A stretch of DNA of 64,000 bases from Branchiostoma floridae (lineage: Eukaryota > Chordata > Leptocardii > Amphioxiformes > Branchiostomatidae): positions 7,580,530 through 7,644,529 of the forward strand of contig NC_049983.1 in NCBI RefSeq assembly GCF_000003815.2, written 5' to 3'. The notes under the pieces were generated by a model. The model was not told the DNA's origin. It searched no databases and saw only the letters and a list, made by a program, of their open reading frames with translations. Each line of letters opens with the position of its first letter. The first letter of the stretch is position 1. This document shows positions 12,890 through 38,254 of this stretch, in pieces. Made by a program: the position numbers and the translations under genes.

Positions 12890-13062
12890 GCAAATATATC
12901 CTTGAATGCTTACACCGTAGAACCAATAGTGTAAATTTCATTTTCATTTTTATATAACTAATATGTTGACTCATTCATACCGATAGATATCCATACATGC
13001 CTGTTTAGTTGTACTGTAAGTAGTTATAGACCTTACGAAAGTCGCTGTACTTTTGTCGTGTC

Positions 13063-15339: not shown

Positions 15340-15665
15340 GAATGGTTAGGCTAGGGTGGATAAGAGTAGAGTAGAATAGAGTATGGTACTACATAAAGTA
15401 GATTACAGTAGATCAGAGTACAGTAGAAAGTAAAGAGCCGTAAAGTAGAGTAGAGTGGAGGGAGGGTAGGAAGCAGAGTGGAGTAGAGTGTAATAGAGTA
15501 GAGTGCAATAGAGTAGAGTGTAATAGAGTAGAGTGTAATAGAGTAGAGTAGAGTAGAGTAGAGTAGAGTAGAGTAGGATAGAAAAGAGTAGAGTAGAGTA
15601 GAGTAGAGTAGAGTAGGTAGAGTAGAGTAGAGTAGAGTAGAGTAGAAAAGAGTAGGTAGAGTTAG
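15340..15665. repeat. AGAGT pentanucleotide microsatellite
   Basis: Near-perfect runs of AGAGT with interspersed variants (AGAGTGTAAT, AGTAGGAT). It is the outermost of three such runs (see 16,085-16,125 and 16,515-16,740) beyond the 3' end of cGLR gene B. Confidence 0.9.
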
Positions 15666-15719
15666 ATTAATATGGAGTAGAATGGAGTGGAGTGAAGGGA
15701 AGTAGAGCAGAGAACAATA

Positions 15720-16515
15720 TATATAGAATACAACACGGCGTATTCCGTATCACCCAAGGTGTCAGCCCGACCCGCGGGAGGGCTGAGACCGAGGGTGATG
15801 CGGAATACACCGTGTTGTATTTTATTTATGTCATACCCACCTGAGAAAACCACTGTTTTGATGCGAAATGCCCCAGAAGTTGAACAAATTTGTTGCCCTC
15901 GAAAAAAAAGCGTTGCAACAGTAATGTTCCAACGTCCGAATCAGGTATTCGAACTGTCGATGGCGCGGCACTCTGTCCACTCGAAACAGTTCGATTTATT
16001 CGAATGGAGCCCGTGTGATAAGCCCGGGCCGTACGGAAAGTTATCATCCGGTCCGGAACACCCGTATCGAACGTTTTCGCGTCACAGGTATGACATAAAG
16101 TAGAGTAGAGTAGAGTAGAGTATATATAGAATACAACACGGTGTATTCGGTATCACCCAAGGTATCAGCCTGACCGCGGGTTGTGATCCGACCCGCGGGA
16201 GGGCTGAGACCAAGTGTGATGCGGAATACACCGTGTTGTATTCTATTTATGTCATACCCACCTGAGAAAACCAAGGTTTTGATGCAAAATGCGCCAGAAG
16301 TTGAAAAAATTTGTTGCCCTCGAAAAAAAAGCGTTGCAACAGTAATGTTCCAACGTCCGAATCAGGTATTCGAACTTTCGATGGCGCCGTACTCAGCCCA
16401 CTCGAAACAGTTCGATTTTTTCGAATGGAGCACGTGTGATAAGCCCGGGCCGTACGGAAAGTTATCAGCTGGTCCGGAACACCCGTATCGAACGTTTTCG
16501 CGTCACAGGTATGAT
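15720..16515. repeat. about 390-bp unit tandemly duplicated, with internal inverted repeat
   Basis: 15,720-16,110 and 16,120-16,515 are near-identical. Each starts with GAATACAACACGG.GTATTC, has the inverted partner GGAATACACCGTGTTGTATT about 80-100 bp later, then a shared stretch containing 'AAGCCCGGGCCGTACGGAAA'. An AGAGT run follows each copy. The plus frames of 114 and 118 codons are open in both copies and are similar, but they lack any domain and coincide with the repeat. Probably a MITE-like element duplicated by the pentanucleotide array. Confidence 0.75.
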
Positions 16516-16740
16516 ACAAAGTATAGTAGAGTAGAGTAGAGTAGAGTAGAGTAGAGTAGAGTAGAGTAGAGTAGAGTAGAGTAGAGTAGAGTAGAGTAGA
16601 GTAGAGTAGAGCAGAGCAGAGCAGAGCAGAGTGGAGTACAGTACAGTACAATAACTAAAAGTATAGTACAGTACAGTACAATACAGTAGCTATAGCGTGC
16701 AGTAGAGTAGAGTACAGTAGAGTAGAGTAGGATAGAAAGG
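16515..16740. repeat. AGAGT microsatellite in the 3' flank of gene B
   Basis: A long AGAGT run with GCAGA and CAGTA variants. It begins about 120 bases past the stop of gene B. Read in the gene's direction it is (ACTCT)n, the same orientation as the array that follows gene C at 35,033-35,145. Confidence 0.9.
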
Positions 16741-16857: not shown

Positions 16858-19800
16858 TTATTGGCGAAATCCTAGTGAGAGCACTCTGTTTCTCTCATGT
16901 TCGCTGTCTATCAGACGTTTGATGCGGAACCGCATGTTTTCGATGGTCTCGCGACGTATGCCGTCCAACAGGTTCAGTTCAGGCAGGTAGAAGTGAGGCA
17001 GACGTCTGTCTCGCAGACACGACTCGATCCTGCGGAGATAAACAGTAAGATGTTGCATAGATAACATATCTCTGACGACCCTACACATCGTGGTTTCAGG
17101 AGGTTGAATGAGTACTGACATACAAATACTTAGATCAAATCAAACATGGTTTATTTGTCAGAAAAGGTGTGGCAGCCAAAGGCCCTCTTTACAAAACAAA
17201 GTATTGCACTACACCATCTCGTGTCGTAACATATTGCTACACAACGCTATACATTTAAAACGATTTAAAAGCATTCACAAATATGGCATTAAAATAATGT
17301 ATCGGCGTTAAAATTATCTTATAGGTTAAAATTCAATATCGACTAGATTACCTCATGGAATTGAAAATGCGCAGCATTGATAGGACTGGACTATTGATCC
17401 CCCTATAGATCCCCCAAGCGCTACGGTCCAATTTGCAATGTTGCACGCAGGGGGGTAGCTGAGCCCGACCGAGCCCAAACATAGCCCGGTAACCGCAGGA
17501 CATCCTACGGGGCCACGTAGGAGTCACGCCAGAAAGTGGTGAACAGCACCCCCTTTTTCAATTGGTACCTGGGCATTAATTGTGCAATGCATCAGAGTTT
17601 CTCGTGTAACATAAAAATCGTGTGTTTTGCGTCTTGTGGACTATGCTATCCTTTGAGCTATTGTCAGGGTCGCATTAAGCTTTGACACCATAAAGTTGGC
17701 AGAGGACAAACAAGACTTGCTTGCACTGCTATATGCCAAATATACAACAAAAATTCCATAGCAAAAGTTTGCAGTTTGGCTTTGTATGAAGCCAGGAACA
17801 TTAACTCTATTACGATCGAGTAATGACCAACCTCCTCAGCAGGTCCAAGAAACGATCGCCCATCTTGCTGCTCTGCCATTGGTCCTCTTCTTGACACATG
17901 CGCAGCAGGACAGTCTTCAGGTGAAAGGACGTGAACTTGTCCAGGCCTGGTTCCCTCCGGAACACGCTCTTCAGGACACGGAGGCAGTCACGACGGCACT
18001 CGTTGGCTCTGTCGATCCTGAAAAATTGATTGATTTTCAATGTACATGTACAAACTGTATATAGCTCAGTTTGCGTCGACTATGATGCTGATTCTAGCAC
18101 ATCACTGCGCAAAGGAGCCTCTACTAAAGTCAAAAGGGATTTTTGGCTGTAAAAGATCTGCCTCTACACATTGGCTAATGCAAAGTGCACAATAGGTTCG
18201 TGATGGTCGTACGGTCGTCGATCTACAAATACTTGTCTAATCTGACCTTGATATCATCCTGGTTTCGTAGACAGAGAAGGACTGTCTCCACAGCATGGCA
18301 GGATCGTACCTCAGGGACCAGTCCGGAGGTTCGTCCGCGTACGGCTTGTACGGTTTGGCGACGTAGTATGTCTGATCCAGCTGGATACACAGGACCAGGT
18401 CCACGTCTATGGACAAGCCATACCTTTCATTTATATTTACCTGTCAGAGATGGGGACAGAAGGAAGACAGTCACATCTTTGTATCCTAAAGCTATAAACT
18501 GGATTCAGAGAAACCTATTGCCAGGTAGCGCATATAAAAAGATATGCTGCTCTAATTATTCTGGGCTTTAAGCTATGGTATTTATTCAGAGTGTCTTGAT
18601 GATGCAGTTACTGTGGCAACTGCAAAAGATAACTGCAAAGCTCAGTTGTCCAATGTTTTTGGAAATGGCAAGAGAATCTAGACTCCCTTGCAGTCTTCGG
18701 AACGGGCGTTGGACCACGATTTTCAACGTTGACTATGTTCTCTTGTGCCCGGAAGGGAGTTTGCCGAGGAAAGGAGTTTGCTGTGAAAGGGGGTTTGGCG
18801 TGATAGCAAGTATATGCCCCATCCGTCAGAGCCAACGTTGAAAATCGCGGACCAACGCCCCCCCCCCAAAAAAAAAAGAATCCAAGAGAACCCAAGAAGA
18901 CCCAATGCTCCAGGCTGCACACAACGCAACAATCCATTAGATTTGTAGTAACGTTAAGATTTGTTTTGACGAAAGAAGAGGCTTGCTCACCATTACGGCT
19001 GGTCCGTGGCGGGAGACACTCAATGAAACAGGACTCCAGGTCGCGCTTGACACCTGTAAAAATTCATTCCACGTTAGAAAAATTATATGGTCGAACGTTT
19101 TCTATCTATAACACGCAGAGTAGTATGCCACATTGTTCTTGTAATGAATTTTATCAAACATATGGACACATGTGAAACATTGGAACTTGAAGTTGCTTTT
19201 TTTTCACTGGTTTGACGCACCAGAAAAAAATGGTCATACATCAATGACAATGAGCGATTGACCCACCTTGTTGACCCCTCTCTGCACAAGTCCATAGAAC
19301 CAGTCGAGCATCTTTGTCGGGTTGATGTTTTGGTATCCATCGAGACACCTAGAAAACCGGTGAGGGTGCTGCCAGGCTTGGAGCCTAGCGTAGCCGGGAG
19401 TCATCTCCTCGCCCTCGACATCTTCTGATCCGTCAATCACGACCATGATGTCAAACTCGTCTGGTTGACCAAATTTGGTGCCCTCGTACATACTGCCTGT
19501 GTACTCTATCCGGCAGCGGTTGGCCCGTTGAGGCCTGCCGGCATCTATTTGTTCCTTGACACTGTCAATTATAGCCCCAATGTATCTTCTAACCAACTCT
19601 TCGGCGCACTTTGTTTGTTCGTCATCGAGTTTCAGTTTCTTTTCATGGTACACCTTCAACTGCTCCGTGAGAGACAAGTCTTCACACCAGTCTGGGACTA
19701 CCGATCTTTTGACAGGGTTTGATGGGCTTTCGGGCAAGAAATTGCCTCCAACTCGGTAGTTGCCCCCACGAGCATAACCACAGAATTCCTGTACAGGGCG

Positions 19801-21747
19801 ATGAGGGACGGCCGATTCTCGCAATTCGTGGAACCTGTATGAGATCAATAGCCTTACCAGGGTGACGTGTGACTGTATATTTGTAATACTGTGGAATCTA
19901 AGGTTAATCAAATTTTGACCATTCAAATATGATATGTGGTCAGTTGTACGTAGTGCATGCAGATTTTCTTGGAAGTGACACCCGGCATTCATAGGAGGCA
20001 TATTCTTTTCCTTCCTTCCTTTTAACATTTCAACATACTTTTAATATTCCTTATTTAAAAACTGAGAAGATGCATGGGGGTTCGTAGTGGTCACAGTCTG
20101 CTCCGTGAGCATTGACTAGAGTCTTCGAAATAGCGAGCCAGCGGTTGTATTTTCACGTACCTTTCATCATCATCATTATCATCATCGACACTTCGCCAAT
20201 GTCGGTAGCTCATCAGCCCTCCGAGGAACAGAGCGGCACCGGCGGCAACAGCGGTCAACAATACTGCTGAACTTTCTGGCTCGTCATTTGGTCTATCTTG
20301 ATACCCATGGCGCCTGTATGGATTGAAATTCAATGTCACGGCAGTGAATAGAATTTTCATCAATCAGTGACTACTTTTGAAAGGTAAACACACGTACCTC
20401 CAAATTGTCGATGGCTATCAGGCCATCTTGTTCATGGAGTGACCTAGTTCTCGCGAGAGTTGTGAGAAATATGTCGAGATTTGCATGGATCTTCTACCCC
20501 CTCGTCCCGCCTCCTTGCGTAGTAGGGGTAAGTAGGACTTGGGCAGCACCCAGTGATCATTGCGGTTCAACTTCGCACCTTCCAACTGGATGTGAAGCAT
20601 CTTTGATTTTTCTTTGATGCCATGGCAATCTTTTGAAACAATATGTTTAGCATCATAGCTACAATATGAACAAATTGCAATCCAAATTGAAGAGCGTTTT
20701 CTACATCTTAAAACATAGTAGAAAAGACCTTTACATATCAGGCTGACCTGTAACTGTACATTTTCAAACACTGGGAAATAAAGAATTAGTTTTGACCATT
20801 TTGACCACTCAAATATGCCATCTTTCTATGGGAATAGTCGTGTGTATTGCAGATGAATGAGAATCGGCATCTATGTGTTCTTTTCCTTTTTACTTTCACA
20901 AATCATTCACATTCATACACCATTTCATCAAGTTGGTATATCTAAACTGCAGCAGAGGGGGGGGGGGGCATGCACGTCTTCGGTGCTCCCTTGGAAATCA
21001 GCCTACTAGACTGAAGGGACCACTCTATAAGATCAATAAATAAATAGTGTGACACAACGATAATTTTACGCACCTTTCCGGCACATTGTTGACACTTCTT
21101 CGATATTCGTCGTCTCTTGTCATCTGCCTTTCTGCTGGTTTGGGCAACCGAACTTCCGCCTTGTCCTTTGCATGCCTTTCTGGTTCAGCATTGGATCTAT
21201 CTTGACATCTGTCGTTCCTGTACGGATTGAGATTGAATACCAATTTTGAAAAAAAATAATAAGCTACAATTTTAACGGGCAGCAATCAAAGCAAAACGTT
21301 ACCCTTTCCTTAAAAGTGATACAAAGTCCTTAGTAATACAGTGGAAGCCAGTTAATTGTACGTTGGATAAACACACACTTCGGTCAATTGCACGGAATCC
21401 CTAAATCCCGTGGTGGTGGGGTCCCACTGGGTAACTACGCATTATCGCACACGACGGATAATTGCACGGAATTTACTGGCAAATTGGGTGTGCAATTAAG
21501 CGGCTTCTACTGTACTAAGGCGAGATTTCACAATATAAGTGCATAGGCAAATGACTGTTAAACGCAAATGACGCAAATAACCGTAGACATAGTAGCTTCT
21601 GATGTACCTTCTTTTGTGTTTATCAGCATCAGCATCGCTTCCGGTCAAGTACAAGTAAATCAGCCAGCCCGCAAACGCTGTCATCAGAAATCCTACGCAT
21701 GTGGTTACGGCAACTCGCAATATGGTTACAGCTGTCTCTATAACCAT
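16858..21747 (-). CDS. membrane-anchored cGAS-like receptor, gene B
   Basis: Eight exons (minus strand, 5' to 3'): 21747-21608, 21217-21074, 20313-20161, 19834-19267, 19053-18991, 18440-18247, 18017-17832, 17029-16858. They join in frame to 539 residues. Residues about 6-34 (TILRVAVTTCVGFLMTAFAG and following) form a membrane helix near the N-terminus. Exons 2 and 3 are linkers bounded by phase-2 introns; exon 3 contains a second hydrophobic helix at about 110-131 (AVLLTAVAAGAALFLGGLM). Exon 4 holds the nucleotidyltransferase site: GS at 259-260 (YTGSMYEGTKFG), E272 and D274 in DEFDIMVVID; D370 in SIDVDLVL is the third ligand. The C-terminal half has MLWRQSFSV, SFHLKTVLLRMCQEEDQW and HFYLPELNLLD. 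Family knowledge predicts a nucleic-acid-triggered cyclic-nucleotide synthase acting upstream of STING-like receptors. The membrane topology is inference. No zinc-thumb cysteine cluster is present. Confidence 0.87.
18650..18870. repeat. inverted-repeat element in gene B intron
   Basis: GGGCGTTGGACCACGATTTT near 18,705 pairs with AAAATCGCGGACCAACGCCC near 18,843, enclosing about 130 bp that includes a C-rich and A-rich run at its right. It lies in the intron between exons 18440 and 18991. Probably a small MITE or its core. Confidence 0.55.
20161..20313 (-). CDS. gene B linker exon 3 carrying a hydrophobic helix
   Basis: 153 bases, phase 2-2. It begins RHGYQDRPNDEPE like the other linker exons but then has about 20 hydrophobic residues (AVLLTAVAAGAALFLGGLM), then YRHWRSV and an acidic run DDDNDDDE before the donor AG|GTACGT. 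If it is used, gene B would span the membrane twice. Confidence 0.75.
21074..21217 (-). CDS. gene B linker exon 2 (phase 2-2)
   Basis: 144 bases, starting after an acceptor in CCGTACAG and ending AG|GTGCGT. It encodes a charged, probably disordered stretch: NDRCQDRSNAEPERH through EYRRSVNNVPER. It is a clear homologue of gene C exon 2 (shared PERHAK, EVRLP, EYRRSVN) and, more distantly, of the next exon. Exons with equal phases on both sides can be duplicated or skipped without changing the frame. Confidence 0.8.
21339..21512 (+). mobile_element. MITE with TA target duplication (family CAGTAGAAGCC), gene B intron 1
   Basis: 174 bp flanked by TA on both sides (21337-38, 21513-14). Terminal inverted repeats are CAGTGGAAGCC at left and GGCTTCTACTG at right, with 'CAAATTGGGTGTGCAATTAAG' close to the right end. 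There is no coding capacity. TA duplication and termini fit a Tc1/mariner- or pogo-type non-autonomous element. Confidence 0.85.
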
Positions 21748-21796
21748 GATGCCGGACTACAGTCGCTCACTGAAGATGACCTGTTGGCTTCTCTAA
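21748..21796 (-). promoter_or_regulatory. conserved 5' leader of gene B
   Basis: AGAGAAGCCAACAGGTCATC then TTCAGTGAGCGACTGTAGTC and CGGCATC precede the ATG. Gene C has the same leader with few changes, and the two hydrophobic exons at 2.7-3.0 and 5.8-6.1 kb have a diverged version. It probably belongs to the 5' UTR. No clear TATA box is seen upstream of it. Confidence 0.6.
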
Positions 21797-22679
21797 CGTC
21801 GTGACTCTATTTTAGGGTATCCGCCAGTCATTCAATATACAGCCTCTTAACAATTGTTTCCTATACAAAAAAAGGAGAAAGCAACCGTAACTAACTCAAC
21901 TTTCTGACGTAACTGGCACACAAACATACCCTCATATGAAAGCCCGGATTTCTAGGGAAAAAATCTTGAAGTTTTAGACCCCGAACTATATGGAGGATTG
22001 GCTGGTGGATCCCATTTACTGAAAGACAGGTACTCGCGCCAATTGAACTTGTCAAGACACGTATGCATTTTACTACTAGTAGGCACTCAGATAGCAGGAT
22101 CTTGCATGGCTCATGCAAGGACATTATATAGTATGTAGTCTATTGAGCATAAATGATAAATGATAAACGCACATTTGCAAGTCCCCTCCTGTGTAGTCCT
22201 TCTCTGTGTGTGGCAGGCTATTTTTATGGTCACTGCCTGAAGGTCATCATGATTGAGACCAGCTCAATTGCTCACTAAGAGTGAGGACTAACTGACCCAA
22301 TAGGCAAAGCAGGGGGTACGAGGGCTGCTCGGGAAATTCCCTACCCCATTTAGAGCCGATTTGTGCTATTTTCTGATCGCTCATGTGTTCTTATGTTGCC
22401 AAGCTTATACGCCAACTTTTGGCATTGCCTTTGGCCATATTACAACACATGAATGATCAGAAAATATGCCCAAAGCCTGCCACAGGACACACACACACAG
22501 AGAGAAGGACTCAGCACAGGAGACTAAATATCTCTTGCAATCAAACATTTGCGATCACAATATACCCCTAATCGGCCAAAAAACAGAGAGAAACACCAAC
22601 CAACAAGAAGGCCTGTTCCAGAAGGCTACGGATCGGAAACGCCCAGAAATATACCTGTGGTGAAGTTCTATGGGCGTGA

Positions 22680-23050
22680 CTGTGCTGTGTGCTTTCATGT
22701 GGACAAACGCTACTAGACTATTTGTTCGACAGCTACATTGAAAATCGGTTATGTAACGTTAATCAGGTCCAGGATAGTCATTGATATATATCGGAAATGC
22801 CAACATACCTTATTCTATATCCCACTCTGCACCTCTGCAATGAGTTTTGCTAAAACGTGGCGCTTCCTTGAGTAATTCAGCTTCCAAGTCCACAAGATCA
22901 CTTCCTTGACACGTTTAAACGTTAGTAAGTCACAAAGGTCAATGGCGCGCAAGGGGTCATGGGGAAGTCGTTTTTCGACTTTTACCGAACATCCGAGCAG
23001 ATGTTGGGTGGAAGACCGTATATTATGACTGACTGTCAAGATTGGCATCT
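22680..23050 (+). repeat. dispersed repeat family R, plus copy of an inverted pair
   Basis: It carries the family landmarks 'CTACTAGACTATTTG', 'TTTTGCTAAAACGTGG' and 'GAGCAGATGTTGGGTGGAAG'. It is followed directly by an inverted copy, so 22.68-23.64 kb forms a large imperfect palindrome between the divergent genes B and C. Confidence 0.65.
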
Positions 23051-23640
23051 GATGAAGCCTGACAGCCGCAGTCAAAACGTTCTTCCATCCCAACGTCTGC
23101 TTGGACATTATATTTAACAAGCCCTACAAGGCAAAAGGTTGTCTATGCGATATCTGAAAGTATACTAAGTATGAATTAACTTAATCTGAAAACGGCTAAA
23201 CCTAGACACCGTGAAAACGTTACGCTCTTACATCCTAACATCTGCTTGAAGATTTGGTAAAAGTGGGTGGACGAGCAAACATTTCCCGTCCCCCCTTGCG
23301 AGCCATTCACCTTCGTTTAAACATACGTGTCCAGGAAGTGATCTTGTGGACTTCGAAGTTGAATTACCAAGAAAACGCCACATTTAAGCAAAATCCTGAG
23401 CAGAGACACAGCTGAAGTGTGATCTAGAACAAGGTCTGTCGATATTCATTACTGTCGGAACCTACCAATATAGCGATTTATCCCCTTTTTATTGTCCTAA
23501 ATTGTCAAGGACTTTCCAGGTGACCCATAACTGTTCAAAGTTTGAAATTGACATGTCTCCGCGACTGCGATCTGCTGTATAATCGTACGTTATAATGTAT
23601 GTCTCATGTTAGAAAAAAAAAATTCCCTTTCTTGCATTCC
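23050..23640 (-). repeat. dispersed repeat family R, minus copy of an inverted pair
   Basis: Reverse-complement landmarks 'CATCCTAACATCTGCTTGA', 'AACAAGGTCTGTCGATATTC' and 'CCAGGTGACCCATAACTGTT' match the minus-strand copy at 8345-8830. No credible frame. Confidence 0.65.
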
Positions 23641-25135
23641 AGCATTTTACGTGTCCCTTTGCCTTGGTGTTTTTCATATATTTGTAGATCAAATAGTAAG
23701 GTTGCTACACATGGAAGCAAACGACACGCCCAGAGTCAACACGGGAACATTCTAAAAGGTTGATATCACAGTTGGAACTCTCCATATAGCTAAATAGGAA
23801 AGCATTGTTGAAATACACTGAAACATCTTAGACTTCAGAAAAGTACTTACCCAATTTCAATCTTGAAAATTTATCTCACCAGACAGTAACAAGGGTCGTC
23901 TTTATAACCATTTAAAGAAAACAGGTGTTGACCAGCGCAGACCCCGAGGAATGCTTGCTCTATGACGACAGAAACCTCACCGCATGGTCTTTTTAGCGAA
24001 TGCCCACAAACGCCCACTCTAGAGAAGTCCGCGCTGCACGAATCTCATTTTTTTTGCTTGGAATATGTCCAAGTTGTGCTCCCATGTATTAATCCTGAGT
24101 TTCAAGTCAATCTATTGACCCGAAGTGACATAAATCAAAGTTTTCGATTCTCGATGGTCTTTTTAGCGAACGCCCAGCAAAATGTCTTTTTAGCGAATGC
24201 CCACTATATCCACAAAAATATCGGCCGTCGCGCAACGACACCTAAACCTACCGCCACAAACATGTTCAAGATGGTGTCCCATTGATGTGTACGGAGTTTC
24301 CGTGCTTTACAAGCATTTTAAGTCCCTGTTTTTGGTCAAAATGTACGGCGACGATACTACCATACTTTAACTATAGCAATTCAAAATGGCGGGCACTAGT
24401 CATGTGACCTCTTTGCGGGACTGTTCTATAAGTATCGCGGGAGGGATTGTTGTAGCATAGCTTCTCATACAACCATTTTAGAGTGAATTCTGAACAAGAT
24501 TTTCATTTCATAGTGCTATCATCTGACTGATATTTACATTGTGGTCATTTTTTCTGTGCTATTATTACCCAGGTTTGAGGAACTTAGTGCAAATTTGGAT
24601 ATTGATTCACCTCAGTGCCCAATTAATGTACAAAAGGCTCAGACACATTAGTGTTATAAACCTGAATAGGGGCAGGTAACCAATACTAGAAAAACATAGC
24701 TATTTATTATTAACAATACTATTTACATTATGATAATAACTCTTCACCAAACTGGACTTTTCTTATCTTTATTTATCACAGAAACATTGTTACAATGAGG
24801 ATTTGATTAGATGAGTATCTTTTACAGTGTGTACAAACTTATTTCAAATACAAAAATGTATTTCGTTTCACTTCCTAAATATTTTTAAAGTATTGGAAGA
24901 AGTTGACACATAAACAATATTAATTGCATTATTTATGTGCAGTAAAATGTGACCACATGTTATCAATAGCCTAATAAAATGTTGGAACATGGCACAAGCG
25001 GGCTCCCCTTCTGAGTACAGAAAGGAAATGTTTTATAACATTTAGTTATGACGTAGAAAATTCCAATTGTAAAATGTACCTTTATTAACATTTACAAACA
25101 AATTGTTTTTTTAAACTCTTAATAAATGACAACAA

Positions 25136-25905
25136 TACAGGTAAGTAAGGTGTGTTTCCTTTTATAACAGGCCAGGTAAGACACCGTACAGGTAAGTAAG
25201 GTGTGATTCCTTTTATAGCAGACCAGGTAAGACACCGTACAGGTGAGTAAGGTGTGTTTTCTTGACTACAGACTAGGTAAGACACCTTACAGGTGAGCAA
25301 CGTGTATTTCCTTTCATTACAGACCAGGTAAGACACCGTACAGGTGAGTAACGTGTATTTCCTTTGATTACAGACCAGGTAAGACACCGTACAGGTGAGT
25401 AAGGTGTGTTTCCTTGACTACAGGCCAGGTAAGACACCATACAGGTAAGTAAGGTGTGTTTCCTTTAATAACAGACCAGGTAAGACACCGTACAGGTGAG
25501 TAACGTGTATTTCCTTTGATTACAGACCAGGTAAGACACCATACAGGTGAGTAACGTGTATTTCCTTTGTTCACAGACCAGGTAAGACACCGTACAGGTG
25601 AGTAAGGTGTGTTTCCTTTGATTACAGACCAGGTAAGACACCGCACAGGTGAGAAAAGTGTATTTCCTTTGTTTACAGACCAGGTAAGACAACATACAGT
25701 TGAGTAACGTGTATTTCCTTTGATAACACGCCAGGTAAGACACCATACAGGTAAGTAAGGTACGTTTCCTTTTATAACAGACCAGGTAAGACACCGTACA
25801 GGTGAGTAACGTGTATTTCCTTTGATTACAGACCAGGTAAGACACCGCACAGATGAGTAAGGTGTCTTTCCTTTGCCTATAGACCAGATAGGGCATTATA
25901 CAGGT
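25136..25905 (+). repeat. 51-bp minisatellite, splice-site-like units, plus-oriented block
   Basis: About 15 units of 51 bp. The consensus contains TTTCCTTTGATTACAG, then ACCAG, then GTAAGACACCGTACAG, then GTGAGTAAGGTGTG. Each unit therefore has a pyrimidine-rich stretch ending in CAG and two consensus 5' splice sites (CAG|GTAAGA, CAG|GTGAGT) on this strand. 51 is divisible by three, so all frames without a stop in the unit stay open for long distances. These frames are not evidence of protein coding. Confidence 0.9.
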
Positions 25906-26290
25906 AAGTAAGTTGCTTTACTCACCTGTTTAATACCTATCTGGTCTATAGGCAAAGGAAAGACGCTTTACTCACCTGTATAATACCCTGTCTGGTCTAT
26001 AGGCAAAGTAAAGACGCCTTACTCACCTGTATAATGGCCTATCTTGTCTATAGGCAAAGGAAAGACACCCTATTCACCTGTATAATGGCCTATCTGGTAT
26101 ATAGGCAAGGGAAAGACACCTTACTTACCTGTATAATGCCCCATCTGGTATATAGGCGAAGGAAAGACACCTAACTTACCTGTATAATACCCTATCTGGT
26201 CTACAGGAAAAGGAAAGACGCCTTACTCACCTGTGTAATACCCTATCTGGTCTATAGACAAAAGAAACACACCTTACTCACCTGTGCGGT
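25906..26290. repeat. diverged central units of the foldback minisatellite
   Basis: About seven units of the type CTATCTGGTCTATAGGCAAA followed by GGAAAGAC.CCTTACTCAC. They are more diverged from each other than the outer blocks, as expected for the oldest part or the switch point of the array. Confidence 0.75.
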
Positions 26291-27305
26291 GTCTTACCTG
26301 GTCTGTAATGAAAGGAAATACACGTTACTCACATGTACGGTGTCTTACCTGGTCTGTACTGAAAGGAAATACACGTTACTTACCTGTACGGTGTCTTACC
26401 TAGTCTGTTATAAAAGGAAACATACCTTACTCACCTGTACGGTGTCTTACCTGGTCTGTAATGAAAGGAAATACACGTTACTCACCTGTACGGTGTCTTA
26501 CCTGGCCTGTGAACAAAGGAAATACACGTTACTTACCTGTACGTGTCTTACCTGGTCTGTTATAAAAGGAAACACACCTTACTCACCTGTACGGTGTCTT
26601 ACCTGGTATGTAATCAAAGGAAATACACGTTACTCACCTGTACGGTGTCTTACCTGGTCTGTTATAAAAGGAAACACACCTTACTTACCTGTATGGTGTC
26701 TTACCTGGCCTGTAGTCAATGAAACACACCTTACTCACCTGTACGGTGTCTTACCTGGTCTGTAATCAAAGGAAATACACCTTACTCACCTGTACGGTGA
26801 CTTACCTGGTCTGTTATAAAAGGAAACACACCTTACTTACCTGTACGGTGTCTTACCTGGTCTGTTATAAAAGGAAATACACCTTACTCACCTGTACGGT
26901 GTCTTACTTGGTCTGCTATAAAAGGAAACACACCTTACTTACCTGTACGGTGTCTTACCCGGCCTGTTATAAAAGGAAACACACCTTACTTACCTGTATG
27001 GTGTCTTACCTGGCCTGTAGTCAAGGAATCACACCTTACTCACCTGTACGGTGTCTTACCTGGTCTGTAATCAAAGGAAATACACCTTACTCACCTGTAC
27101 GGTGTCTTACCTGGTCTGTTATAAAAGGAAACACACCTTACTTACCTGTACGGTGTCTTACCTGGTCTGTTATAAAAGGAAGTACACCTTACTCACCTGT
27201 ACGGTGTCTTACTTGGTCTGCTATAAAAGGAAACACACCTTACTTACCTGTACGGCGTCTTACCTGGCCTGTTATAAAAGGAAACACACCTTACTTACCT
27301 GTATT
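26291..27305 (-). repeat. 51-bp minisatellite, minus-oriented block
   Basis: About 20 units, the reverse complement of the block at 25,136-25,905 (CTTACTCACCTGTACGGTGT then CTTACCTGGTCTGTAAT). With that block it forms the inner part of the foldback structure. The 225- and 158-codon plus frames are repeat artefacts. Confidence 0.9.
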
Positions 27306-28456
27306 GTTGTCATTTATTAAGAAGAGAAAAAACAATTTGTTTGTAAATGTTAATAAAGGTACATTTTACAATTGGAATTTTCTACGTCATAACTAAATGT
27401 TATAAAACATTTCCTTTCTGTACTCAGAAGAGGAGCCCGCTTGTGCCATGTTCCAACATTTTATTAGGCTATTGATAGCATGTGGTCACATTTTACTACA
27501 CATAAATAATGCAATTAATATTGTTTATGTGTCAACTTCTTCCAATACTTTAAAAATATTTAGGAAGTGAAACGAAATACATTTTTGTATTTGAAATAAG
27601 TTTGTACACACTGTAACAGATACTCATCTAGTCAAATCCTCATTGTAACAATGTTTCTGTGATAAATAAAGATAAGAAAAGTCCAGTTTGGTGAAGAGTT
27701 ATTATCATAATGTAAATAGTATTGTTAATAATAAATAGCTATGTTTTTCTAGTATTGGTTACCTGCCCCTATTCAGGTTTATAACACTAATGTGTCTGAG
27801 CCTTTTGTACATTAATTGGGCACTGAGGTGAATCAATATCCATATTTGCACTAAGTTCCTCAAACCTGGGTAATAATAGCACAGAAAAAATGACCACATT
27901 GTAAATATCAGTCAGATGATAGCACTATGAAATGAAAATCTTGTTCAGAATTCACTCTAAAATGGTTGTATGAGAAGCTATGCTACAACAGTCCCTCCCG
28001 CGATACTTATAGAACAGTCCCGCAAGGAGGTCACATGACTAGTGCCCGCCATTTTGAATTGCTATAGTTAAAGTATGGTAGTATCGTCGCCGTACATTTT
28101 GACCAAAAACAGGGACTTAAAATGCTTGTAAAGCACGGAAACTCCGTACACATCAATGGGACACCATCTTGAACATGTTTGTGGCGGTAGGTTTAGGTGT
28201 CGTTGCGCGACGGCCGATATTTTTGTGGATATAGTGGGCATTCGCTAAAAAGACATTTTGCTGGGCGTTCACTAAAAAGACCATCGAGAATCGAAACTTT
28301 GATTTATGTCACTTCGGGTCAATGGATTGACTTGAAACTCAGGATTAATACATGGGAGCACAACGTGGACATATTCCAAGCAAAAAAAATGAGATTCGTG
28401 CAGCGCGGACTTCTCTAGAGTGGGCGTTTGTGGGCATTCGCTAAAAAGACCCTCCC

Positions 28457-29582
28457 GAAACCTCACCTTTGACCACAGTTTTCACTGATACGCCCCCTCC
28501 CACCAAGTCAATGACATCTAAGGGTAAGAAAGTCGTGTGGTCCATGTCATAAGGGAGGCACATATTCGTGGTGATTCATATTAAGATTTAGAAGGTACAG
28601 AGAAGGACCCACTAACCGTCTCCTCCTCTCATTATCATCAGGAAGTGCGATTTTGGAGAGTTTTATGATCTTAGCAACGCCATGACACGTGTGCAGAGTT
28701 TTGCTTAGGAACACTGTTTGACCTTTGAACTGGGTTATACCAATGAGTTATAGGGGTTATTACTGTCTATTGCGACCAACCGCCAAATCCAATTAAAAAC
28801 AGTATATCTGGAGATGTTTTGCTGTCTATTGCAAGCACACTTGTTTGTTAGACAGTGACAAAATTGTCACCCAGAAGTAGCGCACGGCTAGATCACAAAT
28901 AGAAGAAGTTAGCCAAATAATTATTTACCATGGTATACCGTATAGGGTGATGGCTCTGTCACTCACTCACGGCCCGTAACCTCAGTGGTCGTAGGGGCTC
29001 CCCGACATCCAGTAGCAGATCCGTAGCCTATAATTAATCATCATAAATAATCATCATAAATAAGCTTAAACCACTTTGACGCTTGAAGAAATATGTAATG
29101 GATAAAAGGGAATTTTCAACCACCATATACACACTTTCATGCAGCTGTTTAATTCTGGTAGGTACTCTAGAGTAATAGATGAATGAGACCTTAAAGTCTT
29201 TGATCAAGACACTCTCCATTATGAACCTTGATTATTTGGCGAAGGTATGTGTTTCGTGAAACTCTAGTTGGTTCTAATATGGCCAATTATGATCGAAACG
29301 CCAATCCCAGTAGTTGAAGTACAAATTTGCCCTTAGAGCGATCATAAAAATTGACCAAAAAGCACTAGAAGATGCTAGCCACCCAGAAGACCTGCACAGG
29401 AGGCTAAACGATCGAAACCTCAGCACGGGGCAACCTTCCGTTTACTCTTCAAGTTCAGGCAAACGTAGCTCTTCTGGACTCGAATAGCTATTAATTAGGA
29501 GTTCAACATACACAAATGATAGGTTACACCAAGTCACGCCCATACCCGATCCCTGTCAGAGTGGTCTAAAATCACTTTTGAA
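28457..29582. other. upstream region of gene C, no exon seen
   Basis: It contains a fragment around 29,340-29,440 ('AGAAGACCTGCACAGGAGGC', 'AACGATCGAAACCT') that is an inverted match to the satellite edge near 990-1030 and to 1360-1380. The remainder is unique. No exon found. Confidence 0.45.
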
Positions 29583-29590
29583 TATAAAAG
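29583..29590 (+). promoter_or_regulatory. TATA-like box upstream of gene C
   Basis: TATAAAAG, 159 bases before the gene C start codon. It fits a TATA box with transcription starting near 29,615 and a leader of about 135 bases. Based on motif and position only. Confidence 0.4.
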
Positions 29591-29700
29591 ATGAGATTGT
29601 GGTACATAGCCAGACAAGCGACCAGCATGCAAGTAAAATGGGCATTTTTTTACAAGTCCACTTGGTGTACCTTCTTTTCAGTAAAACGGAATTACGCCGT

Positions 29701-29748
29701 CAGAGAAGCCAACACTCCTCCTTCAGTGAACGACTGTAGTCCGGCATT
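29701..29748 (+). promoter_or_regulatory. conserved 5' leader of gene C
   Basis: CAGAGAAGCCAACACTCCTC, then CTTCAGTGAACGACTGTAGT and CCGGCATT before the ATG, matching the leader of gene B. Non-coding conservation here exceeds that of the first exon itself, which suggests a regulatory or translational role or simply a recent duplication of the 5' end. Confidence 0.6.
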
Positions 29749-32700
29749 ATGAATGAATCCGAAGAGGCCTTTGTTTTGCTAGTTGCCCTATCCATAGTCA
29801 TTGGGATACCAGTGTTTGTGGTCTGGCTGATCTACAAAGCTTGGAAGTGGCTGACAGGATACGAGAATGAAAACACTAGAAGGTACATTATTACCTACTA
29901 CAGTAGAAGCCAGTTAATTGCACAACGGGTAATCACACACCTCTGTTAATTGCGCGAAATCTCAAAATCCCGTGGTGGTGCGGTCCAACTTAATAACTTC
30001 GCTTTGTTGCACCATTCGGATAATTGCACGATCGAAAAACCCTAACAAATTGGGTGTGCAATTAAGCGGCTTCTACTGTATTTATTTAACGGCGTTACGT
30101 ATGATCGCTTACATTTGCTTTTACCGGTCAATTGTCTCTGTTAACGTTACTTTGCCTTTATGAATATTAATTTTGTGTTAAGACATGTCCAAGCAATGTC
30201 TTTGTTCATAATTGTAGCTTGCTAAACAAATTGTTCTGCTTAACAAACTATTATTATGTTTGAGATATGATTATTTTGAAATCTTTGATTATTTAATGTG
30301 TACTACATTATGTTGAAAGGTTCCCCCTGTTTTTGTTTATTTAAAAAAACAATAAACAAATTAAAGAAAAAACAACAAACTTTTAAAAAAACTGAGCTAC
30401 AGTGGCAATCAATCTCAATCCGTACAGGCGTAGATCATACCATGGATATCGAGATAGACCCAACCATAAGCCAGAAAGGCATGCAAAGGAAAAGAAAAAG
30501 GACGAAGTTCGCTTGCCCGAAGCCTACGAATATCGAAGGAGTGTTAACGACAACGCCTTGCCAGAAAGGTACGTGTACTTCAAAAGACAGTACCATGGTC
30601 TCTCACTGATTCAATGATTTGACGCTTAGGATGAATCTAGACGTAAGAAGGTAAGTGTAGAATATAACTGTCAACTTTGAATTCTCGTCCATTACTTCGC
30701 ATTACGTAAAGAAGGAGAGTACGTTTTGCTTGAATTGCTAATTGATTGTACACGTACGTAGCATGCTAATATTGTCTAAAGAACGTTGCCATGGCTTTGA
30801 ATTTCAATTCGCACAGGCATCCGGGATATCGACATAGATTCAATGCTGAGCCAGAAAGGAGCACACGAGTACGGGAGGAAGTCGCCTCTCGGATCCCCGA
30901 ATGGCAGATGGAAAGGGACTACTTGAACGACTATCGAAGAAATGTCTTTCCTAAAAGGTACGTAAAAAGTCGGCCGTACTTCTCTGTTTTCAAGACTAAA
31001 GTTGACGCTTACAGAGCAATCTGCTCAGTTGCAATATAGGAAACGAAATTGTATATAATTTCGAATGAATGTGTATCAGGGTTTCCCTTGGGTAGTAATT
31101 ATTCTGTGATTGGATAAAGTGGATATCTCACTGGGCTGTGGCATCGTGGTGGTACGTTGGGGTTTGTTGACTATGGCATGCACCTTTGCGCTTTGTTTTT
31201 CCCAAGTTTCCCTTGCGCTCACAATGACGTGCAGCGCATTTGCGTTTCAGTGTAATATTAATGTAAAATTATTAAAATGCATCAAAAAGAGATTTGCAAT
31301 GATAAAAGGATGTTACCCTTCTGGTACTAAGCACAACATGTACGTAACATATGATGTGTCAATGGGGGGCATTGGCTCATACTCATAGTACTGTATGTTA
31401 ACGGCAAGGCCACTATGATGGGGGCACGCTGACAGCCTTTCGCCATTTGCGTTGTATTACCATTAAAAACACACATCACCTTTGGAGACATTTTGAGTTC
31501 CCCTACAATGTGATTAGCAGAATGAATGTCCAAATTGGATTTTGAAATGTACAGTTTCACGTTAGCCTGATATGCATTGGTGTTTCTATTAAGTTTAGGT
31601 AGGATGTACTAGTAGGTTCTGCTTAGATTTCTCTTTCATATCGCATCTTGCTAAACAAATTGTTGTGAAAAGCTATTTTAACATTGTATTTCAATCAATG
31701 CAGGCACATTAGATATCGACCAAGAGCCTATCCAGCGAGTTTTGGCACTGAATTCACCTTTGTGTGTGTCGACGATCCCCAATATCGGAGAGATGTCTTC
31801 AGCTCGCCCGCTCAGTCCAGGTATCCTGTGGTCGCGCTAGAAAGCAAATCACACCTTGTCAAAAGCTCAGTCGTCCCTGAATGGTTTGAAGCGCTGTATT
31901 TCACGGAGCAGTTGAAGATGTGCCACAGGAAACTGAAACTCGACGACGACCAAACAAAGCACGCAAAAGTGTTGGTTAGAAGATACATTGGGGCTATAGT
32001 CGACAGCGTCAATGAAGAAATCGATGCCAGCAGGCCAGAAGGGGCTAGCCGCACCCGGATAGAATACACAGGCAGCATGTACGAGGGCACCAAATTTGGT
32101 CAACCCGACGAGTTTGACATCATGGTCGTGATTGACGGCTCAGAAGATATAGAGGACGAGAAGATGACTCCCGGCTACGCCAGGCTCCGAGTCGACCAGC
32201 GCCCTTTCCTCCCTTACCGGTTTTCTAGGTGTCTTGCTGGAGACAAAAACATCAACCCGACAAAGATGCTTGACTGGTTCTATGGACTTGTGCAGAGAGG
32301 GATCAACAAGGTGGGTCCAACTCTCATTGATGAGTGAACAGGTTAAATTTTCGCAACTTGTTTCTTCAAACCTATATACTCACCACAGGTGCAAAAAGCT
32401 TAAGTCTTGACACACCTGTCTCAGGCCATTTAACGTTGTTACCAACTGCAACCGTCCTTGTGCAACTGTTTTTCTCTTGTCTTGCTATAGTGTGCTATGT
32501 TTATACCACTCGTTTGTTTTATGTGCTGTCTATTGAAATAAAGATTTGTGTGTGTGTGTGTCAAATCTATTTTTCTTTATTTTTTCAAAACATCGATATC
32601 TGCATTAGTATTAAAGACACCAACCAATATCATACGTTTCAAAGTTCGTACTTTTTTTTTTAATTTCTATACAAATTCATTACAAGAAAATAGGGCGGCA

Positions 32701-34759
32701 TGCTACTCTTTACATGATATTGATAGAAAACGTTCGACCATATAACTTGTCTCACATGGAATGGACGTTTGCAGATATCAACCTCGGCATTGGATCCTGT
32801 TCTGAAAGTCTCTCGCCACGGACCAGCCGTAATGGTTAGTAAATCTCTTTTTCCGTCAGAACTTCCGTAAGAAACATTCATGCTTCACTGCAAACCCGAT
32901 GGGTTATTGAGCTGTACTCAGTCTAAAGCATTCTGTTATATTTGTGTTCTTAAGCTTTGGGTTTTCTCTTTTCATTTTCTACCTCTGACAGGTTAATATA
33001 AAGGAAAGAAACGGCTTGTCCATAGACGTGGACCTGGTCCTGTGTATCCAGCTGGATCAGCAGACGTACTACGTCGCCAAACCGTACAAGGATTATGCTG
33101 AGGAACCTCCGGACTGGTCCCTGACGTGCGATCCTGCCATGCTGTGGAGACAGTCCTTCTCCGTCACCGAAACCAGGACGCTAGCAAGGTCAGATTTGAG
33201 GAGTATTTTAGATGCATATGTATTGGATATTGTATGGGCGAAGGAACCTTGCAACCTAACATGTCACTAGGCACTGGAGGATCTAAGTCTCCACCCTCCA
33301 AAATGTCCCTGGACTTTAGTAGTAGAGGCTACTTTGCGGCGTTTTGTTGTTAAATCAGCACCATGGACAAAACAGACTGAGCTATATTCGTGTACGTGTA
33401 CATCGAAAATCGATCAATTAACTGTTCAGGACTGATCCAAGTCTCATTTTAGCCAGGGGCCAAACCTCGATGTGAAGTGACAAATCTTTTGTAGTTTGCA
33501 GAGCAACACAACTCTAGAGCATTCTTTTAAGAAGGGTTAAGACATAAGTATAACCCAAACTGAGTTATATTGAAAATCAATGAACTTATCAAACCTTGCT
33601 CAGCATCGACGGAGCCCACGGGTGCCGTCGTGACTGCCTCCGTGTCCTGAAGAGCGTGTTCCGGAGGGAACCAGGTCTGAGCAAGTTCACGTCCTTTCAC
33701 CTGAAGACAGTCCTGCTGCGCATGTTTGAAGAAGAGGACCAATGGCAGAGCAGCAACATGGGCGATCGTTTCTTTGATCTGCTATTGAGGTTTGTCATTG
33801 CGAGTAATACAGTTTTATGTAAAGCTTAATTCTATATTTTTGTACTTTTTGTCATGTAGTCTACCTGACGTGTGTATTTTTCAAGCAACCTTAGTGCTGT
33901 TTGTCCTTTTCATGGCAAGAACGACACATGCACAAAACGCTAAACAATAATGAGCAAGATTTGCACAATACTTTTATTTTTCGTTCCTGCAAACAGATCG
34001 GTCGGGCCCCGGTCTGGAAATGTCATCCTGGCATTAGGGAGGATCCAAGTTCTTTTATACTCGGCAGTCAGGAACAGTTAACCTTTATCCGTAGGGTAAC
34101 CTATACCCATTATATATAAAATCGGGAATTTGGGGATCGTTAATTTTGCGGAAGGCAGTTTCACATTGCAAAATCTCGAAAATGTTGACATTTGAAACCC
34201 ACGTCGTTGACCTGAAATCTCTAAACACTCATTCTTTTTAAAACAACGAATCTAGGTTACCCCACGGATTGAGGTGAGCTTGCGCTACTCAATCAACCCT
34301 CTGAAACCACGGTAAATATTATGACGAGCTTCGCATAGGGTCGTTTAATATACCCCCCTCACATTAAGCGAAAATCGATCGGACGACGAGTCTGCGAGTT
34401 CTAAATTACGAGGAGGCAAGACCCTGCTGCCGACGAAGAAATGGCAGAGTTCCCCCCTTCCCGTCAGGGTCATGCCTCCTCGTAATGTAGAGCTCGCAGA
34501 CTCGTCGTCCGATCGATTTTCGCCTAATGTGAGGTTGGTATTAGACATATGTGTGCTGTTATCTGTGTAACATGTCAGTGTTAATTTCCGCAGGATCGAG
34601 GCGTGTCTGGAAGACAGACGTCTGCCTCACTTCTACCTGCCTGAACTGAACCTGTTGGACGGCATCCGTCACGTGACCATCGAGAATGTGCGCAGGCGCG
34701 TGACACAGCTGATCGACAATGAGCATGAGAGAAACAGAATACTTTACATTTGCTTGTAG
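29749..34759 (+). CDS. membrane-anchored cGAS-like receptor, gene C
   Basis: Eight exons: 29749-29882, 30428-30568, 30817-30957, 31704-32310, 32775-32834, 32992-33188, 33604-33789, 34594-34759. They join in frame to 543 residues. Residues about 7-29 (FVLLVALSIVIGIPVFVVWL and following) form one membrane helix, then KAWKWLTG. Exons 2 and 3 are charged linkers of identical length. Exon 4 begins HIRYRPRAYP and contains the active site: GS at 262-263 (YTGSMYEGTKFG), E275 and D277 in DEFDIMVVID; D375 in SIDVDLVL is the third ligand. The C-terminal half has AMLWRQSFSV, CRRDCLRVLKSVF, SFHLKTVLLRMFEEEDQW and HFYLPELNLLD and ends RNRILYICL. The predicted role is a nucleic-acid-triggered cyclic-nucleotide synthase on a membrane; activity and ligand are inference from the family. 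There is no zinc-thumb insertion. It is divergent from gene B across the foldback element. Confidence 0.88.
29901..30078 (+). mobile_element. MITE with TA target duplication (family CAGTAGAAGCC), gene C intron 1
   Basis: 178 bp flanked by TA (29,899-900 and 30,079-80). Left end CAGTAGAAGCCAGTTAATTG, right end CAATTAAGCGGCTTCTACTG. Same family as the element at 21,339-21,512. Non-coding. Confidence 0.85.
30428..30957 (+). CDS. gene C tandem linker exons 2 and 3 (each 141 bp, phase 2-2)
   Basis: Exons 30428-30568 and 30817-30957 are both exactly 47 codons in length with phase-2 introns on each side. Both start after an acceptor in ...ACAG|G and end in AG|GTACGT. Translations begin RRSYHGYRDRPNHKPERH and RHPGYRHRFNAEPER, and end in YRRSVNDNALPER and YRRNVFPKR. 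The start of exon 4 (HIRYRPRAYP) has the same RxxxYR pattern, so it may hold a third copy. The encoded stretch is Arg/Glu-rich and probably a flexible or nucleic-acid-binding spacer between the membrane and the enzyme; that role is inference. Confidence 0.8.
31040..31683. other. gene C intron 3, nothing else recognised
   Basis: Intron between linker exon 3 and the nucleotidyltransferase exon. Short frames only. Confidence 0.5.
34076..34290. mobile_element. MITE (family GTTCACCTTTATCCGC), gene C intron 7
   Basis: Left end 'TAACCTTTATCCGTAGGGTA', right end 'GGTTACCCCACGGATTGAGG' as an inverted partner; internal ACAACGAATCTAGG matches other copies at 40,331-40,550 and 52,498-52,729. Diverged and non-coding. 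Confidence 0.6.
34350..34545. mobile_element. palindromic MITE, gene C intron 7
   Basis: CACATTAAGCGAAAATCGAT then CGGACGACGAGTCTGCGAG is repeated inverted 130 bp later (CTCGCAGACTCGTCGTCCG, ATCGATTTTCGCCTAATGTG). Half copies occur at 3929-4020 and 6877-6980 in the duplicated units. Confidence 0.75.
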
Positions 34760-34924: not shown

Positions 34925-35150
34925 CTATTCTACTCTACTTAATAATACCCTATCCAAGAAGGTTGAAAAAAGGAGTCGGATCAACTCCACACCACTCCAC
35001 TCCACTGTACTACACTGCACTGTACTGTACTGTACTCAACTCTACTCTACTCTACTCTACTCTACTCTACTCTACTCTACTCTACTCTACTCTACTCTAC
35101 TCTACTCTACTCTACTCTACTCTACTCTACTCTACTCTACTCTACTCGGT
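34925..35150. repeat. CTACT microsatellite in the 3' flank of gene C
   Basis: Perfect (CTACT)n at 35,033-35,145, preceded by CTACTGTA- and CCACT-type variants. It starts about 275 bases after the gene C stop, in the same orientation relative to the gene as the array after gene B. Confidence 0.9.
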
Positions 35151-35159
35151 AGATGGGTA

Positions 35160-36129
35160 GGGGTGGCAAAAGGAAAGGTCAAGTTTGATAATGGGCCTAC
35201 TAGCGACGAGTTGTGGTTATTCAGTGGCGCTTTAAAGTTTGAGGTAAAATTTTCTGTAAGTGTCAGGTTAGTTATTCTTTTAAGAATTGATAGGTCTCGG
35301 AGCAAGAAGTAAGTTTGGGCCCCCTAGCGGCTTGTTTTGTCTGCCAATTTTGTTGCAGACTTTGAAACAGAATAACTCAAGAAAGGATCGACGGATCATC
35401 AGGATATAACAAGATATCTATGTTACGAAAACAAACAGCCTTAGAAATGCATCATTGACAGCAGACAGCTCATGAAGCCAAAAAATGTTAATGTTTCAGT
35501 CACAATTTTTACAACTATATTGCTTGCACTTTCTAAAAGTTGATGTGGACGATGTATGGCAACGTACAGAATAGATCATTTTATCACCTTCTCATATCGA
35601 ATGATTACCGTAGTATGTATCAAGTTACTTATTAAATAGATAACGTTATATCATAAATAGAATCAGTGTCGATAAAACAAAAAGTCGATATACCATCTGA
35701 ACTCATGATAGATCTTAAGGTCTAATCGATATAAACAAAACTAATTTTCTCCTCATATATTCCATAGTGAGTCATATTGACGAATAGTGATATTTGTTAC
35801 ATTCCTACATCATGACTACTTTGACATATTTACAAATTTTTTACCATGTGAGTTGAGTATGGAATTTGTGCCAACGTCACATGCTGAAACATACACTCTT
35901 CCTGGAGCAAACTTTGACTTGCTAAAATTAAACATCTTGTGTAGACTTATTTAGCGCTCCGAAACTTTAAAAATCGGTTGGTGTTATATATTAAATCCAG
36001 AGCGTTCCTAACAACTCAAAAGTAGTTCCTACGATAAAAATACAAAGTGTATCCTTCTGTGCGTCAATCACTATAGTACTGAAAGTCGCAATGTAGTTTA
36101 TATATCACAGTTATTGAAACATTTATAGT
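35160..36129. other. spacer between gene C and the LRR gene, no gene seen
   Basis: AT-rich unique-looking sequence with only short frames. Confidence 0.5.
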
Positions 36130-38140: not shown

Positions 38141-38254
38141 TTCACACGACTTTCCTCGCTTTCCCTAGTTGTAAACATTATTTCCTGGCCCGTGAATAAT
38201 TCAATCAGTTTGGTAAAATTCTTAATCATAAAGTTATTTATGCACAACAAGTTC

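Follow-up and report, generated by a model that had tools for sequence, protein, structure and literature searches.

Predicted membrane anchors in a local array of cGAS-like (Mab-21) nucleotidyltransferase genes of amphioxus

Sensors of the cGAS type are usually seen as soluble or peripherally membrane-bound proteins, with STING as the membrane part; cGAS itself binds membranes through an N-terminal site and has no helix in the membrane. A review reports cGAS at the inner leaflet of the plasma membrane (PMC10855445). Here, we describe a local array of cGAS-like (Mab-21) nucleotidyltransferase genes in the amphioxus Branchiostoma floridae. The array lies in and beside a stretch of 64,000 nucleotides (C5:7580530-7644529), called the window below; positions given without a contig name count from its first nucleotide. 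Two of the genes in the window, B and C, are the main subject. For B. floridae, two cGAS homologues and two STING candidates have been reported, which may or may not include genes of this array, and the cephalochordate cGAS is described as having a long N terminus (PMC10855445).

The closest described systems share different parts of this design. Like the animal cGAS-like receptors (cGLRs), the array genes combine a Mab-21 nucleotidyltransferase with a C-terminal helical domain and carry the GS...E-x-D...D residues, and they form a local gene cluster of the kind reported for insects (PMC9980059). They differ from animal cGLRs by an N-terminal hydrophobic anchor exon and by linker exons that are most likely duplicated. 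According to the same source, 87% of cGLRs have no added domain, and those named as added are ankyrin, TPR, and death domains as well as cGLR fusions (PMC9980059). With human cGAS, the array shares the domain family, the catalytic residues, and a long N-terminal region, but it offers candidates for an integral helix, and another gene on C11 is closer to cGAS. MiD49 and MiD51 also join a transmembrane domain at the N terminus to a nucleotidyltransferase domain of the Mab-21 type (PMC5765209). However, they are mitochondrial Drp1 receptors, not cyclases, whereas the array is nearer to the cGLR structure 8gjy and has kept the catalytic acids. ITPRIP is likewise a membrane protein with a Mab-21 fold, found at the outer nuclear membrane; ITPRIP, ITPRIPL1, and ITPRIPL2, which we compared by description only, have no cyclase function described in the accessible part of PMC6550788. 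Because MiD49/51 and ITPRIP are membrane anchored already (PMC5765209, PMC6550788), and a MiD51-like gene is present elsewhere in the genome, an anchored Mab-21 protein is not new in itself, and the distinct design that the initial annotation proposed for B and C is not supported in that form.

Judged by their Pfam matches, B and C belong to the Mab-21/cGAS nucleotidyltransferase superfamily, with scores for Mab-21 (PF03281) and Mab-21_C (PF20266) of 66.9 and 81.7 bits in B and of 68.3 and 74.3 bits in C (cut-off, 24.1 each). Solved structures were then searched with a profile built from five of the copies (A, B, C, E, and F). The best was 8gjy, "cGAS-like receptor 1," with 124.5 bits in two stretches (profile positions 103-276 and 304-424), followed by the best cGAS chain (74.4 bits), Mab21L1 (71.0 bits), the Mab-21 domain-containing protein 7lt2 (69.4 bits), which we take to be from Tribolium, and MID51 (63.4 bits). 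By sequence, the copies do not fall with the MiD proteins, given the distance between the MID51 and 8gjy scores. The order was similar with C alone as the query: 97.8 bits for 8gjy, 67 for Mab21L1, 62.9 for cGAS, 61.1 for MID51, and 51.8 for 8gjw, a second "cGAS-like receptor 1" chain. Five residues of C, G262, S263, E275, D277, and D375, align with the catalytic residues of cGAS and are identical in all five aligned copies. The published cGLR pattern consists of GS, [DE]h[DE]h, and a third acid within h[DE]h, with a spacing of X50-90 between the second and third motifs (PMC9980059). Its active-site residues are present in C, and the same ones are found in each of the five copies. In MAB21L1, the third acid is changed, and this protein showed no enzyme activity (PMC4897736).

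Gene C, on the plus strand, joins eight exons in frame into a protein of 543 residues, and gene B, on the minus strand, joins eight into 539 residues. All introns are GT-AG, and exons 2, 3, and 4 of both genes begin in phase 2; the lengths and coordinates proposed in the initial annotation were therefore right (Table 1). Exon 1 of C encodes a 19-residue hydrophobic stretch (residues 7 to 25; Kyte-Doolittle mean, 2.97) in a protein with an acidic N-terminal end, and a basic, Trp-containing flank comes after it. The corresponding stretch in exon 1 of B (residues 12 to 30) has a mean of 1.91. Exon 3 of B holds another hydrophobic segment, AVLLTAVAAGAALFLGGLM, at residues 111 to 129, and its hydropathy, 2.16, exceeds that of exon 1. 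By hydropathy, B is not a single-helix protein. The single helix that had been assigned to both genes thus stands for exon 1 of C but fails for B, because of this second, stronger segment.

The whole genome (513.4 Mb, 431 contigs) was searched for further copies. With exon 4 of C as the query, at least seven copies were found, G, F, E, D, A, B, and C, all within C5:7517-7613 kb; the copy counts are lower bounds, as only the best candidates were scored. An eighth copy, H, was found by its linkers alone. It consists of exons 1 to 3 on an unplaced contig of 1,671 bases (C57), the only match besides C itself when the linker exons were the query. Additional copy fragments lie at C5:7432.7k and C5:7545.3k. 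In gene F, exon 1 is joined directly to a single linker-plus-enzyme exon, giving a 435-residue open reading frame in six exons. Gene G seems to be built likewise, with masked bases interrupting its exon 6 match.

The hydrophobic first exon ahead of linkers and enzyme, as noted at the outset for B and C, recurs among the paralogues. First exons of this type, with an AG/GT phase-2 donor, precede B, C, E, G, and H, each where it would be expected and on the expected strand. They are clear in these five of the eight copies; in D such an exon is probable, in F it is absent, and for A none was found. By hydropathy, C, E, and H have one hydrophobic segment each, B has one (plus that in exon 3), G has two, Da and Db have three each, and F has none. 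Since H was found through its linkers alone, its first exon, which lies where expected, is in the expected phase, and has a hydropathy peak of 2.43, bears out the expectation for an independent copy. Da and Db are a pair of first exons at least 9.4 kb before gene D, and they are the only two places matched by Da in the genome search; from strand and order only, the pair probably serves gene D.

Exons of this kind are more frequent than expected by chance. We scanned 129,558 unmasked bases on both strands for exons of the form ATG...AG/GT[AG] in phase 2, with at least 40 codons and a hydropathy peak of at least 1.9. Eight exons were found, compared with 0 to 2 each (5 in total) in 10 first-order Markov sequences. 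In a separate list of such exons, eight entries were within those limits, namely, the first exons of B, C, E, and G, the two exons Da and Db, an extended exon 3 of B, and an unrelated exon at C5:7551539. The start-site sequence, allowing at most 5 mismatches in 20 without gaps, occurred only in C, B, and Da in 139.5 kb. No Pfam match above the cut-off was obtained for the anchor exons of Da, G, and E, and G had two weak matches (best E value, 0.028). AlphaFold modeled the Da/Db anchor as one helix of 103 residues with a predicted local distance difference test (pLDDT) value of 85.9, a model that does not tell the number of membrane passes.

Among B, C, E, and H, the borders and the interior of the first exon have evolved differently. 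The 5' flanks were alike beyond 300 of 300 shuffles in 17 of the 21 first-exon pairs (Db excluded), and in the weaker pairs, E-Da, E-F, H-G, and H-F, 4 to 14 of 300 shuffles reached the score. Flank identity in the aligned part was 77 to 88% for the six pairs among B, C, E, and H. For the pairs among B, C, and E, the difference was 19 to 21% in the flank and 15 to 23% in exon 4, compared with 41 to 49% in exon 1 (Fisher P values for exon 1 versus flank, 0.0014, 0.00014, and 0.000033, from nonindependent pairs and a gapped alignment of exon 1). Between C and H, 10 of 65 flank bases differed, and the divergence was 15% in exon 2, 17% in exon 3, and 54% in exon 1. Between B and H, these values were 6 of 50 flank bases, 51% in exon 1, 33% in exon 2, and 56% in exon 3, the exon that holds the second helix in B. 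In the comparisons among B, C, E, and H, the coding part of the first exon was at least twice as divergent as the flank. Of the 21 pairs, 6 (B-C, C-E, C-G, C-F, Da-G, and G-F) had exon 1 interiors with a similarity that none of the 300 shuffles reached, and the remaining pairs included some at chance level, such as C-H (49 of 300 shuffles). Wholesale replacement of the exon was considered and rejected, since those six pairs retain interior similarity with 0 of 300 shuffles reaching the score; because of this residual similarity, rapid divergence from a common exon, with insertions and deletions, is preferred. We read the pattern as an anchor whose borders, namely, the 5' flank with the start site and the phase-2 donor, have been kept while its interior was rapidly rewritten. 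In a simulation of neutral drift, a single exon copy was still open and hydrophobic in 4 to 10% of the runs at a distance of 0.43 and in 8 to 18% at 0.3. For one pair, this is suggestive; it would be strong only over several copies, whose independence lies outside the model.

In B, C, and H, linker exons 2 and 3 are both symmetric, in phase 2-2, and those of B and C have lengths that are multiples of three. They also resemble one another, the number of shuffles of 1,000 that reached the observed score being 0 for C2-C3, 0 for C2-B2, 2 for B2-B3, and 1 for C3-B3. For the start of exon 4 of C, no clear relation to any of these linkers was seen (17 to 629 of 1,000 shuffles). The modular linker exons of the initial annotation are upheld by these comparisons, and most likely the linker was built of duplicated phase-2 exons.

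From these sequence features, we consider it reasonably probable that the eight amphioxus copies, B and C among them, encode a cGAS-like (Mab-21) nucleotidyltransferase that is tethered to a membrane, with an enzyme part that would face the cytosol and feed STING. The first exon would put one or more helices into a membrane, which, from the high hydrophobicity of the helix in C, may be the endoplasmic reticulum or the plasma membrane. The duplicated-exon linker would come next, and the enzyme would then lie on the cytosolic side, where it may bind a microbial ligand and synthesize a cyclic dinucleotide as a signal to STING. Under the positive-inside rule, the charges that flank a helix can be read as topology. 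In the 25 residues after the helix, there are 6 positive and 2 negative charges in C, 3 and 2 in E, and 8 and 4 in G, and the shorter tails of Da and Db have 3 and 0. For C, E, G, Da, and Db, the charges after the last helix thus favor an enzyme on the cytosolic side. Two STING_LBD matches on C2, weak and above the cut-off (E values, 7.5e-5 and 1.4e-4), point to at least one candidate STING gene in the genome. A more tentative proposal, possible but not probable, is that the fast-diverging anchor exon, with its 0 to 3 helices, sends a conserved cytosolic cyclase to different membranes, so that sensing would be coded by place. The rewriting of the anchor is perhaps driven by viruses that hit the anchor or its membrane.

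Several results weigh against a membrane-tethered synthase of the cGLR type. In the search with the five-copy profile, 8gjw scored 55.9 bits, below MID51. The spacing between the second and third motifs lies slightly outside X50-90 in the five copies scanned, at 91/93 in B, 93/95 in C, 92/94 in A, 94/96 in F, and 98/100 in E, the paired values standing for two possible hDh matches per copy. The overrun is small. Because of it, we place the genes in the superfamily and call them cGLR-like and not proven cGLRs: the identity given in the initial annotation stands as a Mab-21/cGAS nucleotidyltransferase with its catalytic acids but not for the last spacing. The AlphaFold model of exon 4 alone had a pLDDT value of only 35. 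After the second hydrophobic segment of B, there are 4 positive and 9 negative charges, and this net negative flank gives no support for a cytosolic enzyme. The first exon of F has kept the start and the donor over 31 whole codons and contains no hydrophobic stretch of 19 residues, and a search upstream of gene A found no hydrophobic anchor exon; tethering is therefore not universal in the array. Gene D (C5:7573348-7573797, left of the window) has an in-frame TGA early in its enzyme exon, and masked bases reach into its exon 7; D is possibly a pseudogene, or the assembly is wrong here. The enzyme exon of E opens in phase 0, not 2, with the acceptor chosen. From D and E, parts of the array may be dead. 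Immune arrays often gain and lose copies, and the doubtful state of D and E suggests that this one does so too.

The closest pair of first exons, Da and Db, also runs counter to the divergence pattern described above: the exons differ at 18 of 312 positions and the flanks at 5 of 62, so that the exon shows no excess. The nonsynonymous (dN) and synonymous (dS) distances in exon 1 were 0.57 and 0.43 for B and C and 0.058 and 0.065 for Da and Db, giving no signal of purifying selection. Purifying selection as proof that exon 1 is coding was therefore dropped. These values are evidence against strong constraint on the letters of exon 1, while its hydrophobicity persists.

The same features can be explained in other ways. 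The hydrophobic exon could be optional, with a soluble cGLR from another promoter or start as the main product and the anchored form as a minor isoform. The symmetric phase 2-2 linkers would allow exon skipping with the frame kept, in-frame Met codons occur at residues 79 and 129 of B and 123 and 211 of C, and F has its long open frame with no helix at all. However, the first exon recurs in five copies, its 5' flank and start site conserved, and exon 4 of B has no in-frame Met between its start and the GS motif, so that a complete enzyme cannot start inside that exon. We hold an optional anchor to be unlikely. Alternatively, the proteins could be membrane adaptors like MiD49/51 or ITPRIP, in which the fold would serve to bind a nucleotide or a partner protein, without synthesis of a second messenger. 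The layout is the same, with an N-terminal anchor, a linker, and a Mab-21 domain; MiD51 and ITPRIP are described as membrane anchored (PMC5765209, PMC6550788), and MID51 outscores one of the two cGLR chains. An adaptor role is nevertheless distinctly unlikely, considering that the three catalytic acids are kept in all five copies, that 8gjy scores about 61 bits above MID51, and that the genome carries its MiD51-like gene apart from the array, on C18, with no match to the hDh pattern scanned for.

The location of the hydrophobic stretch right at the N terminus would also fit a cleaved signal peptide, with the protein secreted or lumenal. But the acidic N-terminal end of C, the length of the stretch with hydropathy up to 2.97, and the basic Trp-containing flank fit an uncleaved anchor better, and the exons of Da, Db, and G have two to three hydrophobic segments. 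An enzyme that uses nucleoside triphosphates would presumably also be without substrate outside the cytosol. Cleavage is thus very improbable, and the reading that we retain as the most probable one is that of a tethered, cytosol-facing cGAS-like nucleotidyltransferase.

Other Mab-21-type genes occur outside the array. At C11:2520348-2521476, a gene (L002/L028) has a Lys-rich stretch upstream, and its C-terminal exon matches cGAS best (72.7 bits); from its sequence, this gene is likelier than the array to be the amphioxus orthologue of cGAS. Two adjoining matches on opposite strands of C18, at 11341518-11342309 (L029) and 11343309-11344478, have open frames of 396 and 401 residues, and one of the two has a TAG inside the match. 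L029 has one long open frame and a hydrophobic N terminus of its own. It was considered as a second anchored family related to the array and rejected, its best match being MID51; the C18 pair looks like the MiD-like genes of amphioxus. Further Mab-21-type matches are found on C7, C4, C8, and C13.

Several elements lie close to B and C. Between them, at 23986-28451, is a palindromic element with inverted arms of 1.9 kb that are 95% alike (970 bases at 99%), ends of the sequence GGTCTTTTTAGCGAATGCCCAC, and an interior of 51-base tandem repeats. It looks like a nonautonomous foldback transposon between mirror-image genes. Arrays of AGTAG/CTACT pentamers lie past the 3' ends of B and C, at 15350-16740 and 34984-35160, in mirror orientation, as if bordering an inverted duplication. 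The first introns of B (21334-21468) and C (29896-30030) share a repeat that is 79% identical over 135 bases, perhaps an element like a miniature inverted-repeat transposable element; because the repeat is in direct orientation and the genes are inverted, the two copies probably arrived separately. Adjoining the array at 36284-38164, on the minus strand, is a single open frame of 626 residues with an LRR_8 match (33 bits), a hydrophobic stretch, and a long tail, which may encode a leucine-rich-repeat receptor.

Table 1. Exons of the Mab-21-type genes in the window (positions in the window, in reading order)
Feature	Position	Strand	Content
Gene C exon 1	29749-29882	+	Start codon, one predicted transmembrane helix, phase-2 donor
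Gene C exon 2	30428-30568	+	Linker, phase 2-2
Gene C exon 3	30817-30957	+	Linker, phase 2-2, resembles exon 2
Gene C exon 4	31704-32310	+	Linker end, pre-core region, GS and EFD catalytic motifs of the nucleotidyltransferase
Gene C exon 5	32775-32834	+	See exon 6
Gene C exon 6	32992-33188	+	Exons 5-6 hold the third catalytic Asp, D375 by alignment
Gene C exon 7	33604-33789	+	Mab-21 C-terminal helical domain (exons 7-8)
Gene C exon 8	34594-34759	+	End of helical domain, stop
Gene B exon 1	21747-21608	-	Start codon, predicted transmembrane helix, phase-2 donor
Gene B exon 2	21217-21074	-	Linker
Gene B exon 3	20313-20161	-	Linker with second hydrophobic segment
Gene B exon 4	19834-19267	-	Nucleotidyltransferase, GS/EFD
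Gene B exons 5-8	19053-18991, 18440-18247, 18017-17832, 17029-16858	-	Remainder of nucleotidyltransferase and Mab-21_C
Gene A exons equivalent to 4-8	10285-10711, 11241-11303, 11553-11746, 12152-12337, 12712-12891	+	No anchor exon found upstream
Da	6143-5818	-	Multi-helix hydrophobic first exon, shared 5' flank, phase-2 donor
Db	3015-2699	-	Duplicate of Da, alternative or duplicated first exon; protein 88% identical to Da

No membrane-anchored cGLR array is described in the accessible portions of the literature searched, a search whose scope was mainly outside the subscription journals. What sets these genes apart is that a predicted anchor, all three catalytic acids, and duplicated linkers come together in a local array whose anchors change fast. 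If the reading is true, an animal near the vertebrates would have attached the synthase itself to membranes on several occasions, by anchors that change quickly, and this would bear on why location matters in telling self from foreign nucleic acid.

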